Shown here in pieces: positions 1-9,398 of a stretch of DNA of 64,000 nt (positions are counted from its first letter, which is position 1; each line of letters begins with the position of its first letter). The DNA lies in assembly GCA_013150955.1 (NCBI GenBank), contig JAADJD010000019.1, forward strand, positions 1 to 64,000. Direction: 5' to 3'. The stretch is from Calditrichota bacterium. GTDB lineage: Bacteria > Calditrichota > Calditrichia > RBG-13-44-9 > J042. The notes below the pieces were generated by a model that was not told the DNA's origin, searched no databases, and saw only the letters and a list, made by a program, of their open reading frames with translations. The position numbers and the translations under genes are program-made.

Positions 1-64
1 CCCTGAAAAGAAGAGAATGGTTTACGGGACTTTGGCAAAAATCCAAACAGTTTAAGTTGCCAGT

Positions 65-286
65 TCAATTCTCTAATGCGTAATCTGGGTTAAAAAAGTG
101 CAACAGAATTTCCTGCTGGCTGCAAAAATCCAATAATTTTTTGTTGATGGTGACTTCCCCGAAAATCAGCAACTCGCGAACGTTTTCCACCGGTACGTAT
201 TTGCGTCCCGCTGGCCCTTCGAAATACAGGGTGTTGCCCTTGCGCCGCAATTCCCCATCGCTGAAAATGTAGATGGATTTTTCCAT
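65..286 (-). pseudogene. cas1: cas1 N-terminal fragment, truncated by a dispersed repeat end
   Basis: This is the first ~67 residues of the CRISPR integrase Cas1. The start MEKSIYIFSDGELRRKGNTL is the typical beta-strand opening of type I-B Cas1, and the fragment runs through the EILLHFF segment that normally leads into the alpha-helical catalytic domain. There the reading frame enters CCCAGATTACGC, the terminus of the 165-bp repeat family, adds NPDYALEN and stops. All metal-binding residues of Cas1 lie in the missing part, so this copy cannot catalyse spacer integration. The base string at the junction on the coding strand is TTTAA followed by the repeat end, which fits the repeat's target preference. 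I chose the ATG at 286 because the upstream TTG extension is AT-rich non-coding sequence. The remainder of cas1, cas2 and an array may lie left of the window. Confidence 0.85.
70..89 (-). repeat. Remnant end of the 165-bp dispersed repeat (inside cas1)
   Basis: About 19 bases match the left terminus of the repeat family (CCCAGATTACGCATTAG on the minus strand), after which the similarity stops. Positions 1-69 do not resemble the rest of the element and I do not recognise them. The adjoining cas1 bases 90-94 read TTTAA on the coding strand, the kind of 5-bp target seen at intact copies. Confidence 0.7.
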
Positions 287-336: not shown

Positions 337-609
337 TCATATAGATTGCAGGTATTTTATAAATCCGGACAATTCTTGAGAAAGTTGAATCGATTGATTT
401 CTGAGAGAAATGAATTTTAACTTAATAGTGTACTGGTTATCGAATGCCACATAAAGGTGCAAACGGAGCTTTCCATAAGATGCTTTGGAATATTCTAAGA
501 AGCGAATGAACTCTCGCGTGTTGTTTGATTTAAAGCCTTCAGCAGTATTAGCCACGATGGATACGGCCGCTCGTTGAATTTGACCACGCAATCCGAAATC
601 TCTTTTAAA
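337..609 (-). pseudogene. Four-helix-bundle (23S rRNA intervening-sequence type) protein, 5' end missing
   Basis: The readable frame gives FKRDFGLRGQIQRAAVSI followed by VANTAEGF and a four-helix pattern, the signature of the S23/IVP four-helix-bundle family whose members are usually ~115-125 aa. The family's N-terminal helix (about 30 residues, normally including the initiator) is absent. Going upstream, the frame runs straight into the end of the repeat at 610 and meets a stop at 616-618. Only a TTG at 591 could start it. The gene therefore looks broken by the repeat or by a deletion ending at it. Function of the family is unknown; members are thought to be pentameric helical bundles. Confidence 0.75.
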
Positions 610-774
610 ACCAGATTATGCATTAGCCTTCGAATTACACGAATTAACATCAATAAAAATAATAAAATGCACTGGATTCTATCTGGATGAAAATGTTTTC
701 CGGAATATATTCGCTATTTTGTTGATATTTTTCGAATTCATTCGTGTGATTCACGATTTAATGCATTATTTGGG
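610..774 (+). repeat. 165-bp dispersed inverted-repeat element, full copy
   Basis: This copy runs from (A)CCAGATTATGCATTAG to GCATTATTTGGG and is 165 bp long, matching the modal length of the family. The flanks (TTAAA left, TTCAT right) are not a matching duplication, consistent with a rearrangement that also removed the 5' end of the four-helix-bundle gene. The remaining stretch 775-915 is AT-rich and I see no gene in it. Confidence 0.85.
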
Positions 775-915
775 TTCATTCAAAACTATTAAACGTTCTC
801 ATTCATCATTACAATTTTCAAATCTTCTAATTTATTTCAATTCTTACAAAACTTTTGACATGCCTAATCGTGGCGTCTAAGGATTCTTTATGAGACAATT
901 GTAATATTTGCAAAC

Positions 916-1317
916 TTACTTCACAAATGTTTCCGGTGAAAGAGCAATCTGTGGAAATGCTTTTAGAATTTGTTTGTCAGTAGTGATCAGAGACGTGTCC
1001 AGTTCTTTTGCCAGAGCCACAAATTCGCAATCGTACGCAGAACAATTGGATTGGGCAACAAGATTCATCACTTCAAACGTTTCCACCATATATTCTTTCC
1101 CGCGCATCTGCCTTTCTGCCCGAAAAAGAATTTCCAGTGCGGTTTCCAGGGTAATTTCACACCGACGGAGATAACCGGCCAATATATTACGGAATTCTGA
1201 CCGCCATAGTACTGGGGCATGCCAATCCGGGTCGCGCAAGAAAACCTGTTCTACTACCGAGGTGTGTTCTCCTTGAATCCAGAAGTAAGCCAGGATATTA
1301 GTGTCAACAACAATCAC
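916..1317 (-). CDS. VapC/FitB-like PIN-domain toxin
   Basis: A 133-residue PIN-domain protein, a probable Mg-dependent endoribonuclease toxin. Visible acidic residues of the PIN active site are D5 in MIVVDTNILAYF, a glutamate in WRSEFRNIL, the aspartate in AYDCEFVALA and the one in LITTDKQIL. The length is standard for the family. Its start overlaps the stop of the upstream ribbon-helix-helix antitoxin gene by 4 bases (ATGA type), the usual toxin-antitoxin arrangement. The pair sits between cas4 and the cas1 remnant, so it may have entered the cas operon after the operon was formed. Specific RNA targets cannot be read from sequence. Confidence 0.88.
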   Translation of the reverse strand: MIVVDTNILAYFWIQGEHTSVVEQVFLRDPDWHAPVLWRSEFRNILAGYLRRCEITLETALEILFRAERQMRGKEYMVETFEVMNLVAQSNCSAYDCEFVALAKELDTSLITTDKQILKAFPQIALSPETFVK

Positions 1318-1553
1318 GGTCGACCATCATTTTTTAGGGATTGCAAGGTTCTGTCGGTTAAAGAAATGCCCGTTTTTTTTCGCATTTTTCGCGCGTCTGT
1401 GAGAATTTCCGATTCATCAATGGGATGAGGCGTTAAGAGTTGTTCCAGGCAATAAAGGATTTCACTATTTATGCTACGGCGATGGAGGCGTGCCCGCATT
1501 TTCAATTTTTGATAAAGATCATTTGGAATATTTTTTAACGTAATTGTCGGCAT
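1314..1553 (-). CDS. FitA/VapB-like ribbon-helix-helix antitoxin
   Basis: A 79-residue antitoxin. The opening MPTITLKNIPNDLYQKLK followed by RARLHRRSINSEIL is the Arc/FitA-type ribbon-helix-helix fold, which binds operator DNA as a dimer; the C-terminal part should wrap the PIN toxin. I use the ATG at 1553 (GGTGG upstream) rather than an earlier start, because the longer frame runs into a repeat beginning at 1614. The pair is expected to autoregulate from the region upstream of 1553, where that repeat has inserted about 60 bp away and may have altered the promoter. Confidence 0.85.
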   Translation of the reverse strand: MPTITLKNIPNDLYQKLKMRARLHRRSINSEILYCLEQLLTPHPIDESEILTDARKMRKKTGISLTDRTLQSLKNDGRP

Positions 1554-1613
1554 AATTAATACCACCATTTTGGTTCCGTATTGGAATATAATTAGTTTCT
1601 TTTTTTGTTTCAA

Positions 1614-1976: not shown

Positions 1977-2492
1977 TTAACTCCAACAAAACTCCCGATA
2001 GGCGCAATTGCGGCACATGGGAATCCATTGCTCCAGTGGGGGTTTGGGCAAAGCAATGATACGACGGATGTCCGCTTCAGCATTCTGAAGTTCTTCAAGG
2101 CGATCCGGCGTTAGCTCAACCACCACGCGTTTTTTCTCTTTGGGGAAGCGCAGCTCCCCGCGAGCAGTGATGCCGTATTCCTGTAATAATTTTAAATAGA
2201 ACGCCAGTTGCATGATGGCGCTTTTCTCGAATCGGGAGGATTTCTTTACTTCCGCCACCACTATTTCCCCGTCCTGGCGTTTTATCAGGTCGATTTCCAC
2301 ATTCTCCAGGCGCACGCTTTTGCGTTCCCTCTGGTAGCTTTGCTCCTGCAAAAAACGCCCCAGTTCCAGGAAGGGGTTGTCCTGGCGCGCCTCCAATTGG
2401 TGAGCAATTAACCAGACTTCCCGGTGGCAAATGTAGTAATACCATATGAGCGTGCCGGTAACAGTAAATTTATGGTTGTCTATTAAAATCAT
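1977..2492 (-). CDS. cas4: CRISPR-associated exonuclease Cas4
   Basis: A 171-residue Cas4 of the RecB-like nuclease family, which processes prespacer ends and helps select PAM-proximal ends during adaptation. The nuclease motif is visible as the aspartate in VEIDLI (~68) and EVKKS (E81, K83), followed by the QLAFYLK helix. Four cysteines that would hold the 4Fe-4S cluster are C22 near the N terminus and C160, C163 and C169 at the C terminus. It follows cas3 in the operon with a ~115-bp gap. Because cas1 is truncated in this window, Cas4 may have no working partner here. Confidence 0.93.
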   Translation of the reverse strand: MILIDNHKFTVTGTLIWYYYICHREVWLIAHQLEARQDNPFLELGRFLQEQSYQRERKSVRLENVEIDLIKRQDGEIVVAEVKKSSRFEKSAIMQLAFYLKLLQEYGITARGELRFPKEKKRVVVELTPDRLEELQNAEADIRRIIALPKPPLEQWIPMCRNCAYREFCWS

Positions 2493-2607: not shown

Positions 2608-4953
2608 TTACCAGATGCTCGTTTCACTAATTCGTTTATAACCGGTTGTCAAATCGTAATATTCATCCAGTTGGTTTTGGGAGACATAATACATCCCGTT
2701 CACTACCGGAGGGGGATTTTCTTTCAGATCCCGGACGCCCACACTGATAATGTAATTCTGAAGGATATATTTGATTTTCAGGTATTCTTCCCGACGTTTC
2801 CAATAATCTGGTATCTCTTTTAAAGCTCCGTAAGCTTCCCACACCTGTTTTGCCTCATCATCCAGTTCAATGAATACGTCCTGTTTTTCATAATTTTGTT
2901 CGATGAGGCGAAAATGTTCAATAGCATGTTCATCATCCGTGTAGCGCAAGTTAGCAATACTCTGGAGAAGTGCTGTACTTTCGGGGGGAGTAAATTTAGC
3001 GATCCAGTCAAAATAATGATTACACAATTCCAGAAAGGTTGTTTCCTCGTATTGGGGGTCACTTAGTGTTTTGGCAGTGACGTCCAATAGAGAGCGGTCA
3101 TAAATAAAAGAGGCAAACAAGCGCCCTTTTTCATTCACTAATCGATAAACATGGACTTCTCCGCTTTCATTTTTTTGAAAACGATTGCAACGACCAGCAA
3201 CCTGATTAATACTGTCCAAAGGTGCCCAATCCCGAAATACTATTTCGGCATCCAGATTAACGCCCGCTTCGACAATTTGTGTGGTGACCAAGAAATACCG
3301 TTCACTGGCGTTTAAACGGCGAATGCGAGCCAGGCGTTCTTTAGGTACAACATGCGAGGATAGGAATTCTGCATCTTCTACCTCAGGTTGAATTTTATAA
3401 AAAAATTCTTGGGCACTACGAATAGTGTTCAGGACTACAATCACCCGGCTTTTTTCGCTGCTCTTTTCAAGCACTTCCTCACAAAAAGCATCCAGAGTAT
3501 AGGTATTTTCCCTATGAAGAAATAAGCGGATACGATTGGTTGCCTGATAATAACGTTGGGGACTCACCAGTGCAATTTGTTCTTCCTGAGGAAAAATCCG
3601 GGGTTGCGTTGCAGTAACTAAAATAAAGTAGCTATTAAAACGTTCTGCAAATTGAATCAATAACTGATGGAGAACCTGCCAGTATTTGTACGGAATACTC
3701 TGGATTTCATCCAGAATAATTACAGCATTAGCCAAGCGATGATATTTACGCAACGTCCGATTCCGATAACCAAGCAGGGTGTGGAAAAGCTGCACAAATG
3801 TGGTAACAATCATTTGACTGTGCCAGCCTTCAATGAGTAATTCCGCTTCTGGCGTCGTGTAAGTTTCTTCTTCCGTTTCGTAAAACACATCGCTCAGGTG
3901 GTGATGTTTTAATAGCAGGGTGGAATCTACTTCATCCGGGAGTGTTTTCTCCAATACGGTTTTGAGTTCTTCGTAGTTCTGGTCAATGATGGTTGTAAAT
4001 GGCAGGCTGTAAATGACGCGGTGAAGTCCTCTGGCATGGAGTAGTTTTAATGCTGCGGATATTGCGGTCAATGTTTTCCCAAATCCAGTGGGGATTTGCA
4101 AATTGAAGATTCGCTGTCGGGTATCTGATGAAGTGGTTATTCTCTTTTGCGCTTCTTGGTATGCCTTAAATCTTAATCTATCAAAAGCAGTGTTCGGTTC
4201 ATTCCAACCTTTCAGGTTCCGAAAGCGATCGATAACGTCATCTGGAATCGGAGTGTTCATTTGAGGAAGTGTATGAATTCCCACAGCGCTCTTGTCGGAA
4301 TCGATAAGAATGGAGTAAAGTGTGTTTGTTAGAAAAAAGAAATCGAGGTCGTTCCTTTTACGAAAAAAATGAGCGATAGGCCGTTGGGGTTTAAAACTTT
4401 TGGGCAAAGATGAAATCCGTTGGTCGATTACTTCCAGGGGCAAGCTAAGTTTGCTGGCATCCCAAAACTTTTGTAACTGTTTGCGTTCAATATTTCTCCA
4501 TTGCTCTTGTAATAGTTCGCTTTGCAAACGAATAGCGTAACTGCGATTGGGACTATGCAGGTCTCCGTGATGATAGCGAATAACCAGGAAAGCAAGGAAT
4601 GCCATAATTTCCGGTGGTGGGTTGACAAAACCTGATGTTTTCAACCAGTTTTCGATTTCCCAGTAAGCGACCACAGCAGAAAGCAAAGCGTGCTGGGTCT
4701 TTTCAGTCTTTACCGGATTTTCTTGCCGGATATAATTTTGGAAAAATGATGTGGTTTTCCCCAGATCGTGAAACAGAGCAATGCGACGACATAAATCCAC
4801 AAATATATCAAATGGCAAAGGGTGTGAAGCACTTTCCGGGAGCGATTGGGCAAATGTTACTGCATATTTTGCTACCTGCTGAACGTGGTCTTCCCAGAAA
4901 GTATCCGGGTGAGAAAGCCACCTATCATTGGAAGAAATGGAGATTGACGCCAT
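2608..4953 (-). CDS. cas3: CRISPR-associated helicase-nuclease Cas3 (type I)
   Basis: A 781-residue Cas3, recruited by Cascade to unwind and degrade target DNA. The N-terminal HD nuclease has H23, the H62-D63 pair in FHDLGKT and a histidine pair in IRYHHGDLH (~128). The helicase follows with Walker A IPTGFGKT (~287-294), Walker B LDEIQS, motif III TATQP and motif VI QVAGRCNR. Both halves look complete. The start codon lies 29 bp inside the 3' end of cas5, which implies translational coupling. Length and domain order fit the type I-B form. Confidence 0.95.
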   Translation of the reverse strand: MASISISSNDRWLSHPDTFWEDHVQQVAKYAVTFAQSLPESASHPLPFDIFVDLCRRIALFHDLGKTTSFFQNYIRQENPVKTEKTQHALLSAVVAYWEIENWLKTSGFVNPPPEIMAFLAFLVIRYHHGDLHSPNRSYAIRLQSELLQEQWRNIERKQLQKFWDASKLSLPLEVIDQRISSLPKSFKPQRPIAHFFRKRNDLDFFFLTNTLYSILIDSDKSAVGIHTLPQMNTPIPDDVIDRFRNLKGWNEPNTAFDRLRFKAYQEAQKRITTSSDTRQRIFNLQIPTGFGKTLTAISAALKLLHARGLHRVIYSLPFTTIIDQNYEELKTVLEKTLPDEVDSTLLLKHHHLSDVFYETEEETYTTPEAELLIEGWHSQMIVTTFVQLFHTLLGYRNRTLRKYHRLANAVIILDEIQSIPYKYWQVLHQLLIQFAERFNSYFILVTATQPRIFPQEEQIALVSPQRYYQATNRIRLFLHRENTYTLDAFCEEVLEKSSEKSRVIVVLNTIRSAQEFFYKIQPEVEDAEFLSSHVVPKERLARIRRLNASERYFLVTTQIVEAGVNLDAEIVFRDWAPLDSINQVAGRCNRFQKNESGEVHVYRLVNEKGRLFASFIYDRSLLDVTAKTLSDPQYEETTFLELCNHYFDWIAKFTPPESTALLQSIANLRYTDDEHAIEHFRLIEQNYEKQDVFIELDDEAKQVWEAYGALKEIPDYWKRREEYLKIKYILQNYIISVGVRDLKENPPPVVNGMYYVSQNQLDEYYDLTTGYKRISETSIW

Positions 4954-5665
4954 TTCCCAGCTTCCAGTATTGTATAGGTTTCGCTTTTATTGGGTTGCCG
5001 TTCATTTCGTAAATCACGGATTCGTAACGCGTGACCATGCGTTCCGCATTCATGGCTACCGGGATACGGTCCCGTTGATATGCCCGTCCTTCTTCAATTT
5101 GCACAGCAAGCTGACCATTGTTTTGTAAATTCTCGACCGAAATAATCGAATGAATGTAGGTATAATCATTTCCACGGGTTGGCGTTGCCTCCGTCTCCTC
5201 CACGAACCGAAAATTGGCCAGGTGTTCGGAAATTCCCAGATAAGGGGTGTAAATGCACTGGTGGTGAATGAGCAGATTTTTTAGTCGGTCCATCAGCGGT
5301 TTGTTCTCCGGATGCGCTACATAAATTCGATAGTAAGGATCTTTTAGGACTTCGATAATCGTCTGATAACGGCCTTTTTCCGAGGGGATGCGCGACAGAA
5401 ATTTAGCCTTTTTCGTTTCGATCCAGTTGTACCCCATACGGGAGGTTTTAATTGGGTTTACAATTTGCACTGCACTGAACAGTCCCTCCAGTTTATTTAG
5501 ATAAAACTGTTCACCTGAAGGGTCTTTATCATAACCCAACAGAGCACCCAATATACCTTTCAGAACCGTAATGGGTGGAAAATGAAAACTTAGTGGGGAT
5601 GCGGTTGTATAGAATTTCTTAAAATGTGCCCAATCTCCCCACAGGTCAAAGACAATAGTTTTCAT
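4925..5665 (-). CDS. cas5: Cascade subunit Cas5 (type I-B)
   Basis: A 246-residue RAMP protein of the Cas5h/Cas5b type, which caps the crRNA 5' handle in Cascade. The opening KTIVFDLWGDWAHFKKFYTT and the following PITVLKGILGALLGY are characteristic. Its 3' end overlaps cas3, and it starts 13 bp after cas7, within a compact operon. No disruption is seen. Confidence 0.92.
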   Translation of the reverse strand: MKTIVFDLWGDWAHFKKFYTTASPLSFHFPPITVLKGILGALLGYDKDPSGEQFYLNKLEGLFSAVQIVNPIKTSRMGYNWIETKKAKFLSRIPSEKGRYQTIIEVLKDPYYRIYVAHPENKPLMDRLKNLLIHHQCIYTPYLGISEHLANFRFVEETEATPTRGNDYTYIHSIISVENLQNNGQLAVQIEEGRAYQRDRIPVAMNAERMVTRYESVIYEMNGNPIKAKPIQYWKLGNGVNLHFFQ

Positions 5666-5678
5666 TATCAGACCCCTT

Positions 5679-6590
5679 TTAAAATGAAAAGCTGCTTATT
5701 GATACTCCATCCAGCAGTTCCGGGAGTTGAGAAATTGAGGGTGCCATTTGTAAGCGCTCATCAACAGCATATCGAATGCGCGCAATTTTTCCTTTTTCCC
5801 GTTGCAGAGTTTCTACCAGCGGTAGAATATTCAAGGTCAGTTGGGAAATGTCTCGTAAAGCTTCATCTTCAATGCCATCCTCTTTTTTAATAGAAACCAT
5901 TTTGTCCAGATCACCAATATGGAAATTGGGTTCTTGGTATTCAATATCCAACAACAACCGGGGCATTTGTCCAAATTTGCTTCGGGAAATAAGGTTTTTG
6001 GTACCATTCCAGATGGCTTCCATCAGCAAATCTAAGTCCGAATCAGTCATCCGCGTATGCCTGGCGGCATTTTCGTTAGCAATGCCGTGGAATACAATGA
6101 GGGAATAGGGTAATGTGTAAACTTCTGTGAACGTTCCCTGTTTTCGAGCTTCTTTAGAAGGCATCACCGTTGTACCTTTGACGTAATCCAATTTTACCCT
6201 ATGTAACGACCGTCCAAATTTGAATTGTACCGGACCGGTAAAAGTAATAGTCTTGTTTTTAATGGCTGCTGTGGCCCCAAACAGACGAATGTCAATGCAG
6301 GTGTTGATTAAATCATCAGCACTGCTAATGTTTAAGTCATCCAGACGGTCTTCTTTGGTTTTTAAATTACCATCCTCTTTTTTTACTTCCCGAACAAAAA
6401 CTTCCATATTTTTGTGATCAAATAAATAGTCCCGAATGGTGCGTTTTAACCGGACATCGGTAACAATATTCACCCCGGTTTCTTCGTCAATACGCGGTTT
6501 GTTCTCATCAATGGGGTCACCGTTGGGATTGGCATCTTTGACGTCATAGATGAATAAAATTTCGTGCCGGTGGGTTAATGTTTCAGCCAT
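5679..6590 (-). CDS. cas7: Cascade backbone subunit Cas7/Csh2 (type I-B)
   Basis: A 303-residue Cas7 of the Csh2 type, which polymerises along the crRNA to form the Cascade backbone. The N-terminal segment FIYDVKDANPNGDP and the later TGVNIVTDVRLKRTIRDYL are typical of Csh2. It lies 21 bp after cas8b and 13 bp before cas5, with GGAGG-type ribosome-binding sequence upstream. The usual length of the family is matched. Confidence 0.94.
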   Translation of the reverse strand: MAETLTHRHEILFIYDVKDANPNGDPIDENKPRIDEETGVNIVTDVRLKRTIRDYLFDHKNMEVFVREVKKEDGNLKTKEDRLDDLNISSADDLINTCIDIRLFGATAAIKNKTITFTGPVQFKFGRSLHRVKLDYVKGTTVMPSKEARKQGTFTEVYTLPYSLIVFHGIANENAARHTRMTDSDLDLLMEAIWNGTKNLISRSKFGQMPRLLLDIEYQEPNFHIGDLDKMVSIKKEDGIEDEALRDISQLTLNILPLVETLQREKGKIARIRYAVDERLQMAPSISQLPELLDGVSISSFSF

Positions 6591-6611: not shown

Positions 6612-8405
6612 TTAATTGTTGTTTTCTGATTCATCAATTGGTTCTTTACCCACTTTGAAAATGGGTTTGCCATCTTCGGTTGTGGCATTGGATAAATCCA
6701 TGCCCAAGAGGAAGTAAAAATTGATTTCATCATCCGTAATGTTCCAGTGGGAACCTGCCCGAACGAAATATTCGGAGATGACCTCTTCAAGCTGGGTATA
6801 ATAATTCTCGCCATACTCTTCCAGTTTGTTCTGAACTTCAGGAAAAATTTGCAAAATATCGCGCTGACGCATTTTGAGCCCTTTTAAATTTTTTCGGAAA
6901 GGCTGAGAGCCTCTATCCCGTTGTTGAATGTTTAATAAAAATTGGGTAAGCACGCCGGTCAGGAAAACAGCCCGTTTTTCCGCGGTATCGAACGTATCCG
7001 GAAACTGCTTAAAGAACTGTTCAACTTTTTCTTTGACTTCGTTTTGAATTAGGTTGTTACTCATAACCAGTTCCCCTTTTGGTTTATTGGCTAAAATGTT
7101 TAATTCCATTAATAATAAAATAATTTGAAAGGCCTGCAGTGTTTGGATTCGGGTGAATTCCTCATTGGCAAATCGCTGGCGCAAAACACCCAGAAATTGA
7201 CTTAAGAGATAGAAGTAATCCACGGGTTTGCGTTTAAAAACTTTTTCAACCACATTCAGAAAAGCCTGAGGATTAGAGATAAAGTTACGAATATTTCGGA
7301 AAGTAAATTCTATGTTTTTTAGCTCATCTTTTTCTTTATATGCTTCTTTAAAAATTGAATGGTTTTCCACAGTTTCTTTTGCAATAAACAGTTTTTTAAT
7401 CATGGATGGTAAAACATCTGGAAGATAAAGCAGAATGGTGAATTTTGCTTTAGCACTTTCGTAAAATAAAAAGTTGTAAACCAGGGCATCGCTTTGTTCG
7501 GAGGCAAAATCCAGAATGTCATCTTCTTCATCCGCTAAACGTTTTAAATCCCGAGTTTTAAGCTGTTTTTTTCTTTCCTGTTCCAGAAACACTAATGCTT
7601 CGCTCAATACTTCGGGGTTTCCTAAAATTGATTTTGGCATCAGATAATATCGGATTCCCGCAAAGCGAAAATTCAGCGCATCTTCTACATGCTGCTTGCC
7701 TTCTTCTATAAATAAACTGCATTTTTTACAAATGGGAAAATTTTTCCACCCGGTTTTTGCTGAAAATCCAGAAGCGATGAATCCGGGTTTGTCTAAGCTG
7801 TAGAAGGCCCAGGGCTTTACATTGCCCATGACAAACCCTTCCGTGCCACAAAGACTACAAACACCTTGTTCGTGGGCAATATCTTTTTTAGATTCGTAAT
7901 ACGTTTCAACAAAATAATTGCGGAATGCTTCAATCTCACCGATATGCTGATTGTTTATGCTAACGGTTAAAATAATTCCGTCGCTGCCTTCTTCAGCTTC
8001 TTTCTGTTCCAAGTGGCGTAAAATATCCTTTGCATATTTTTGTATAGCACGCGCCAGTTCACCAACGATGTTTTTATGTTCAGCATTTCCTTTTGCCCAA
8101 TTCAATATTCGATTGTTGAATGTTCCTGTTAATCCTTTTCCCGCTACCAGGGCACAGGGCGTATAATTGGCTCCGGAAGCTCCTTTTCGTTTGTAAAGGT
8201 ATTTGTCGTACTGTGTAGAAATCGGTTCATTAAAAATTCCGGAATATGATAATTCGCCATTGCCTGTTTTATCGAAATTAATTCGGATAACAGTTGAGTA
8301 ATTTTCGCTACCGGGATTTTCTAAAAGAATTGAAATTTCATCTGAAACGGATTTCCCCTGATCTTCCAGGGAAAAACGTCCAATTTCACGTAAACTTTCC
8401 AGCAT
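6612..8405 (-). CDS. cas8b: Cascade large subunit Cas8b/Csh1 (type I-B)
   Basis: A 597-residue large subunit that recognises the PAM and recruits Cas3. The Csh1-type zinc-binding site is visible as C183-x2-C186 (CSLCG) and C226-x2-C229 (CKKC). Similarity is typical for the poorly conserved Cas8b family; assignment rests on the cysteine pattern, length and position before cas7. It is separated from cas6 by an unusually long 249-bp leader that carries its own promoter-like sequence. Confidence 0.9.
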   Translation of the reverse strand: MLESLREIGRFSLEDQGKSVSDEISILLENPGSENYSTVIRINFDKTGNGELSYSGIFNEPISTQYDKYLYKRKGASGANYTPCALVAGKGLTGTFNNRILNWAKGNAEHKNIVGELARAIQKYAKDILRHLEQKEAEEGSDGIILTVSINNQHIGEIEAFRNYFVETYYESKKDIAHEQGVCSLCGTEGFVMGNVKPWAFYSLDKPGFIASGFSAKTGWKNFPICKKCSLFIEEGKQHVEDALNFRFAGIRYYLMPKSILGNPEVLSEALVFLEQERKKQLKTRDLKRLADEEDDILDFASEQSDALVYNFLFYESAKAKFTILLYLPDVLPSMIKKLFIAKETVENHSIFKEAYKEKDELKNIEFTFRNIRNFISNPQAFLNVVEKVFKRKPVDYFYLLSQFLGVLRQRFANEEFTRIQTLQAFQIILLLMELNILANKPKGELVMSNNLIQNEVKEKVEQFFKQFPDTFDTAEKRAVFLTGVLTQFLLNIQQRDRGSQPFRKNLKGLKMRQRDILQIFPEVQNKLEEYGENYYTQLEEVISEYFVRAGSHWNITDDEINFYFLLGMDLSNATTEDGKPIFKVGKEPIDESENNN

Positions 8406-8654: not shown

Positions 8655-9398
8655 TTAAATGGGAGTCCACATGCCAAATCCCTGGCTGTTTTTGGATCCT
8701 AATCCACATTCATAGGTGATGCGAATTAAATCAGGATCTCCGACGAGTTCGTATTGGCCATCCCACGCTCTGATGACTGTACCCTTGTAGTAAATAATGC
8801 GTTCTCGATTGCGCTGCGATATGGGACGTATGAGAAACTGACTTTCTTTATTTTGATTGTATAGCACTTGAAATTTTTTCCGGGCATTTTCTGTCATCAG
8901 AATCGAAAAGTCTTTTTCCATAGGTGAATAATAGTGAGTGACTTTTTTCCCATCGGGTTTGCGAAAGGTACTGTAAATGGTCATTGGAGATAGCATTTTA
9001 ATTTTTACCGGGGGATGTATCTCTGGGGGAGAAAGGACTTCTATGCCAATCAACGTCAGCTGGGTTTGCCCTAACTGAAGTGTCCCTTTTCTGAGAAAAT
9101 ATTCCGCCATTTCTTGCATAATCCATTCGACCGGGGAGCTTATGTACCATTGAAAGGGAGGATGAAGCCAGATCCCTTTTTCAGGGGAAGTTTCACGCGG
9201 TGCAGCTTTTCGTCCCAGAAGGCGTGAAAAGGTGAACAGCTTAAAGGAGCGCTTTCCATGGAGAAATCCCTGATCATGCAGTTTCTGTGCATGTTCCGGG
9301 GATAAACTCTGGTAAATTGCCGCCTGAAGATATTCGTGGTATCGGAACGGAAAAAAAACAGGATCTGTCTTGCTGTCCAGTTGAAAACAAATCCTCAT
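8655..9398 (-). CDS. cas6: CRISPR RNA endoribonuclease Cas6
   Basis: A 247-residue Cas6, which cuts the pre-crRNA within each repeat and stays bound to the 3' stem in Cascade. The glycine-rich C-terminal loop GLGSKNSQGFGMW is the family hallmark, and histidines in FRYHEYLQ and KLHDQGFLHG are candidates for the catalytic residue. It is the first gene of the cas locus and has a strong promoter just upstream. Substrate repeat sequence is not in the window. Confidence 0.93.
   Translation of the reverse strand: MRICFQLDSKTDPVFFPFRYHEYLQAAIYQSLSPEHAQKLHDQGFLHGKRSFKLFTFSRLLGRKAAPRETSPEKGIWLHPPFQWYISSPVEWIMQEMAEYFLRKGTLQLGQTQLTLIGIEVLSPPEIHPPVKIKMLSPMTIYSTFRKPDGKKVTHYYSPMEKDFSILMTENARKKFQVLYNQNKESQFLIRPISQRNRERIIYYKGTVIRAWDGQYELVGDPDLIRITYECGLGSKNSQGFGMWTPI

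Follow-up and report, generated by a model that had tools for sequence, protein, structure and literature searches.

In the 64,000-nucleotide stretch of DNA analyzed here (the window), an IS1380-family insertion sequence interrupts the cas1 gene of a type I-B CRISPR-Cas operon after its codon 65, at a TTTAA-type target. The I-B interference genes all look intact. Elsewhere in the genome, a second repeat family persists in two arrays, which we infer to be those of the I-B system. The sole other adaptation module, a type III Cas6-RT-Cas1 fusion with Cas2, is split by an in-frame stop within the reverse transcriptase (RT) region. With the I-B cas1 cut, the type III fusion split and the interference genes complete, the cell most likely runs I-B interference on stored spacers, while spacer capture is probably reduced or lost. 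We give this reading as a whole a probability of roughly 70%; the spacer repertoire may then be frozen. The features on which the reading draws are listed in Table 1.

Table 1. Features at the left end of the window, with positions, strands and supporting matches.
Feature	Position	Strand	Evidence
IS1380-family right end, including last transposase codons	1..89	+	identity to other contig ends, C18 overlap
IS1380 transposase stop TAA (81-83); right terminal inverted repeat (73-89)	within 1..89	+	
cas1 (I-B, Cas1b), truncated	65..286	-	65 native codons + 8-residue IS-completed tail; PF01867, TIGR03641
presumed 5-bp target TTAAA	90..94	.	AT-rich 5-mers adjoin same terminus in other copies; partner copy absent from assembly
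23S rRNA-intervening-sequence protein fragment, between cas1 and cas4	337..591	-	PF05635 positions 32-105/106
MITE-like repeat, ends resemble IS1380 terminal repeats	605..785	.	at least 40 genome places, mostly 79-92% identical
PIN-domain toxin (VapC-like)	916..1317	-	PF01850
ribbon-helix-helix antitoxin (FitA-like)	1314..1613	-	PF22513
cas4	1977..2492	-	PF01930 positions 1-160/160; TIGR00372 above cut-off
cas3 (HD nuclease + helicase)	2608..4953	-	TIGR01587, TIGR01596 above cut-off
cas5b	4925..5665	-	TIGR02592 above cut-off
cas7 / csh2	5679..6590	-	TIGR02590 above cut-off
cas8b (TM1802/Csh1 type)	6612..8405	-	PF09484 E 9.5e-143; TIGR02556, TIGR02591 above cut-off
cas6	8655..9398	-	PF01881; TIGR01877 above cut-off

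The truncated cas1 was identified from its N-terminus. Its open reading frame (286..65, minus strand) matched the Pfam Cas_Cas1 family (PF01867; E = 3.3e-14, model positions 1-66 of 283) and the NCBIfam model of type I-B Cas1b (TIGR03641; model positions 1-65 of 324), and its product was 53% identical to residues 1-66 of the intact Cas1 encoded by the L090 operon of a Sulfurihydrogenibium MAG. The frame is open up to the exact terminus of the insertion sequence: 65 native codons are complete (286..92), the last base of codon 66 (AAC) is supplied by the repeat, and the repeat then adds seven residues (PDYALEN) and a stop. A preliminary description of this DNA had stated that cas1 is cut at a repeat terminus on a TTTAA-type target, and this was borne out, with the terminus at base 89 followed by TTAAA at 90-94; it had rightly placed the end of Cas1 at the repeat, but after about 67 native residues, two more than the 65 that we count. 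The active site of Cas1 is carried by its C-terminal domain. This entire domain is missing from the fragment, and the I-B locus as assembled therefore cannot make its own integrase.

Genes were named with Pfam and NCBIfam, and the curated cut-offs were exceeded for all operon genes except, in NCBIfam, the truncated cas1. Cas8b/Csh1, Cas7/Csh2 and Cas5b are encoded together with Cas3 and Cas6 in one operon, which places the system in type I-B. The earlier claim that cas6, cas8b, cas7, cas5, cas3 and cas4 are intact also held: each is of full length, matches its family, and is similar in length to its counterpart in the L090 operon. The two operons are alike in gene order (cas8b-cas7-cas5-cas3-cas4-cas1-cas2 in L090) and gene families. 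An intact cas1 and cas2 beside cas4 are usual in complete I-B loci, although not required for the subtype; here, unlike in L090, cas1 is cut by the insertion sequence, neither cas2 nor an array lies alongside in the assembly, and the far side is unassembled. A further difference is that a toxin-antitoxin pair, a 23S rRNA-intervening-sequence protein fragment and a MITE separate cas4 from cas1, leaving a gap of approximately 1.7 kb between cas4 and the cas1 start at 286. The toxin-antitoxin pair is VapBC-like (916-1613); the Sulfurihydrogenibium operon has cas1 next to cas4. Cas8b was used to look for operons closely related to this one, which gave one match at 35% in GTDB genomes and, among the near relatives, G024 at 36% and G015 weakly; none were found in viral contigs.

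The interrupter of cas1 is an ordinary insertion sequence. Window bases 1-89 recur, at 98-99% identity, as the ends of four other contigs (C44, C35, C14 and C19), at all of which the identical terminus is followed by an AT-rich 5-mer (TTTAA, TTTAA, ATAAT and TTTAA, respectively). The start of contig C18 overlaps bases 1-89 by 31 exact bases and supplies the element body, with the transposase (219 bits to NF033539 against a cut-off of 180, plus a PF13701 match) and the left end. Joined through this overlap, the element measures 1459 bp, slightly short for the IS1380 family, and its inverted ends match at 17 of 20 bases. At another copy, C13 and C44 rejoin one open reading frame in frame across a 5-bp TTTAA duplication, which identifies both flanks of that copy; the copy inserted in cas1 shows one flank only. 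The element thus resembles the IS1380 family in its DDE transposase, its terminal inverted repeats and its 5-bp AT-rich target duplication. Unlike the family, its only assembled transposase (L022:3-1266, on C18) lies in two overlapping frames, and this copy may therefore be inactive or its consensus collapsed; a single uninterrupted transposase reading frame is needed for activity, not for membership of the family. Neither the sister species nor any of 11 further relatives yielded the element, which is therefore probably a recent arrival in this genome.

The same element accounts for the position of the contig edge. The sequence to the left of the window had been suggested as the place to look for the rest of the locus, but contig C12 itself begins at window base 1, and therefore no assembled sequence lies further left. 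C12 ends at bases 1-89 because the element is repeated, its terminus being common to five contig ends; as the contig ends indicate, the assembler was unable to resolve about five near-identical copies, leaving C12 to end inside the element. We rejected a random assembly chimera at the start of C12, given that the junction falls at the exact terminus of the insertion sequence and on an AT-rich 5-mer, as in the other copies. By analogy with the gene order of L090, cas1 and cas2 would be expected beyond the insertion. Neither the cas1 remainder nor a I-B cas2 was found in the assembly (4.07 Mb, 66 contigs, 99.7% complete) by searches with the Cas1 profile, the Cas2 profile, and tblastn with residues 61 onward of the intact relative's Cas1; these searches returned only the type III copies, a single additional Cas1 and a single additional Cas2. 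It is improbable that only some of the sampled cells have the insertion, or that the contig end is a wrong join, with most cells carrying an uninterrupted I-B cas1-cas2 in sequence outside the bin. The break does lie 89 bases from a contig end, within a repeated element, and one left junction of the insertion sequence is absent from the assembly; however, an exact terminus on an AT-rich 5-mer is unlike a random join, and so complete an assembly contains neither the I-B cas1 remainder nor its cas2.

To account for the far side of cas1, we compared the assembled ends of the element. There were five right ends versus four left ends, and C8 holds an additional left-end remnant that is 95% identical and degenerate. 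Three of the left ends have flanks that suit the three right ends followed by TTTAA. By this 5-mer, the partners of C27 and C21 are necessarily C35 and C19, and either pairing fits. C12 and C14 compete for C18, the left end of which is obscured by the insertion of a second element, and synteny with the sister genome G001 linked C18 to no right flank. None of the assembled left ends has a flank with the target duplication required by the copy in cas1, and at least one left junction is therefore missing from the assembly. Given this imbalance of right and left ends, the far side of cas1 may be unassembled rather than deleted. As a variant of the insertion reading, a deletion next to the insertion sequence, or recombination between its copies, may instead have removed the 3' portion of cas1 along with cas2 and any neighboring array, which would then not lie in a gap; we regard this as a possibility somewhat short of even. 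It fits with the failure to find any of the remainder in the assembly and with the state of the C18 copy, at the left end of which the second element is inserted with an 8-bp duplication of AATCTGGG, the sequence further out being rearranged. Against it, a short unassembled contig explains the unaccounted left junction equally well, and the sister-genome synteny yielded no linkage. The earlier view that adaptation may be lost is supported in that the assembly contains no intact I-B cas1 or cas2, but needs correction in that the far side is an assembly gap, where the cas1 remainder may lie. The second element on C18 is a fragment with IS256/Mutator-like ends (L022:1402-1660), and is itself cut by a MITE.

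A genome search for a second cas1, likewise suggested beforehand, located one on contig C5, in a type III locus that encodes Cas10, RAMP proteins, Cas2 and a Cas6-RT-Cas1 fusion and contains arrays. The frame of the fusion (L021:5896-8829) is split by an in-frame TAA (L021:7510-7512, at C5:56509-56511) inside the RT. With the stop at the 13th codon beyond the FADD motif, the RT catalytic motif is cut off from the remaining RT and Cas1. The sister species G001 has the same gene as one intact frame of 983 residues, the Cas1 parts being 66% identical, and in G036 it is also intact (943 residues). The TAA may be a single-base consensus error; no compensating frameshifts were seen in the divergent RT fingers region. 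The locus resembles published type III Cas6-RT-Cas1 fusions in domain order, in the adjacent cas2 and arrays, and in the FADD motif (PMC8102632, PMC5513706); it is unlike them in being split. Downstream of the stop, the Cas1 domain is complete (PF01867 positions 2-282 of 283) within a 423-amino-acid reading frame that has its own ATG, 15 codons past the stop, and the adjoining cas2 is likewise intact. Use of the internal ATG could therefore let DNA spacer capture survive. The loss of adaptation raised in the preliminary description is plausible, and the TAA in the second cas1 gene, which that description did not foresee, strengthens it; adaptation may nevertheless persist, since the Cas1 domain after the TAA is whole and could start internally.

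The arrays fall into two repeat families. One repeat, of 36 nt (GTCTGAAAAGCCCCGTTATTCAGAGGGGATTGAGAC), makes up an array on C27 (23 copies) and another on C18 (21 copies), and a similar leader-like flank borders each of the two; the arrays on C5 have a 34-nt repeat. By elimination, the 36-nt family would belong to the I-B system. Profile searches detected no recognizable cas1 or cas2 adjacent to the C27 and C18 arrays, and the neighboring reading frames were not cas-like by eye. An exact repeat search found no array within the window, the side beyond the insertion sequence being outside the assembled sequence. Because a second cas1 and cas2 are present on C5, adaptation in trans is possible in principle, and this is the main rival to reduced or lost capture: the type III Cas1, translated from its internal ATG, and Cas2 would also serve the I-B-type arrays. 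Besides the complete Cas1 domain and its intact cas2, such a role is favored by the 3' end common to both repeat families (ATTGAGAC), by the demonstrated use of Cas1 across types in Flavobacterium columnare (PMC8092290), and by the occurrence elsewhere of RT and Cas1 as adjacent separate genes (PMC5513706). We nevertheless consider it rather unlikely: no good ribosome-binding site is evident upstream of the internal ATG, outside the common 3' end the repeats of the two families differ, as do their leader flanks, and the RT, Cas6 and Cas1 parts are coupled in a Cas6-RT-Cas1 structure (PMC8102632).

Interference from stored spacers with poor capture has a partial precedent in the type III-A system of Lactococcus lactis pKLM, in which cas2 is absent, a vestigial insertion sequence flanks the array, and attempts to obtain spacer gain failed (PMC3519859). 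Both systems have kept interference, have apparently defective adaptation, and show remodeling of the locus related to insertion sequences. They differ in that cas1 itself is interrupted here and the Cas6-RT-Cas1 of the second system also has a stop. Decay of cas genes through insertion sequences is known; what is mildly unusual here is that both adaptation modules are damaged. The stronger proposal that the I-B and type III modules were lost independently, through a burst of IS1380 and a nonsense mutation, leaving the arrays as read-only memory, is in our judgment unlikely. If both modules are truly broken, the genome would offer a natural example of CRISPR immunity that does not learn, and the arrays of different strains should differ only by spacer loss. 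In practical terms, a cas gene cut by a contig edge is to be read alongside the insertion sequence copies at the ends of other contigs and the remaining cas loci of the genome.

A further observation concerns the MITE-like repeat between cas4 and cas1, which is approximately 175 bp long. Its 17-bp end motif occurred 727 times genome-wide with up to two mismatches, versus 90 times for a reversed control.
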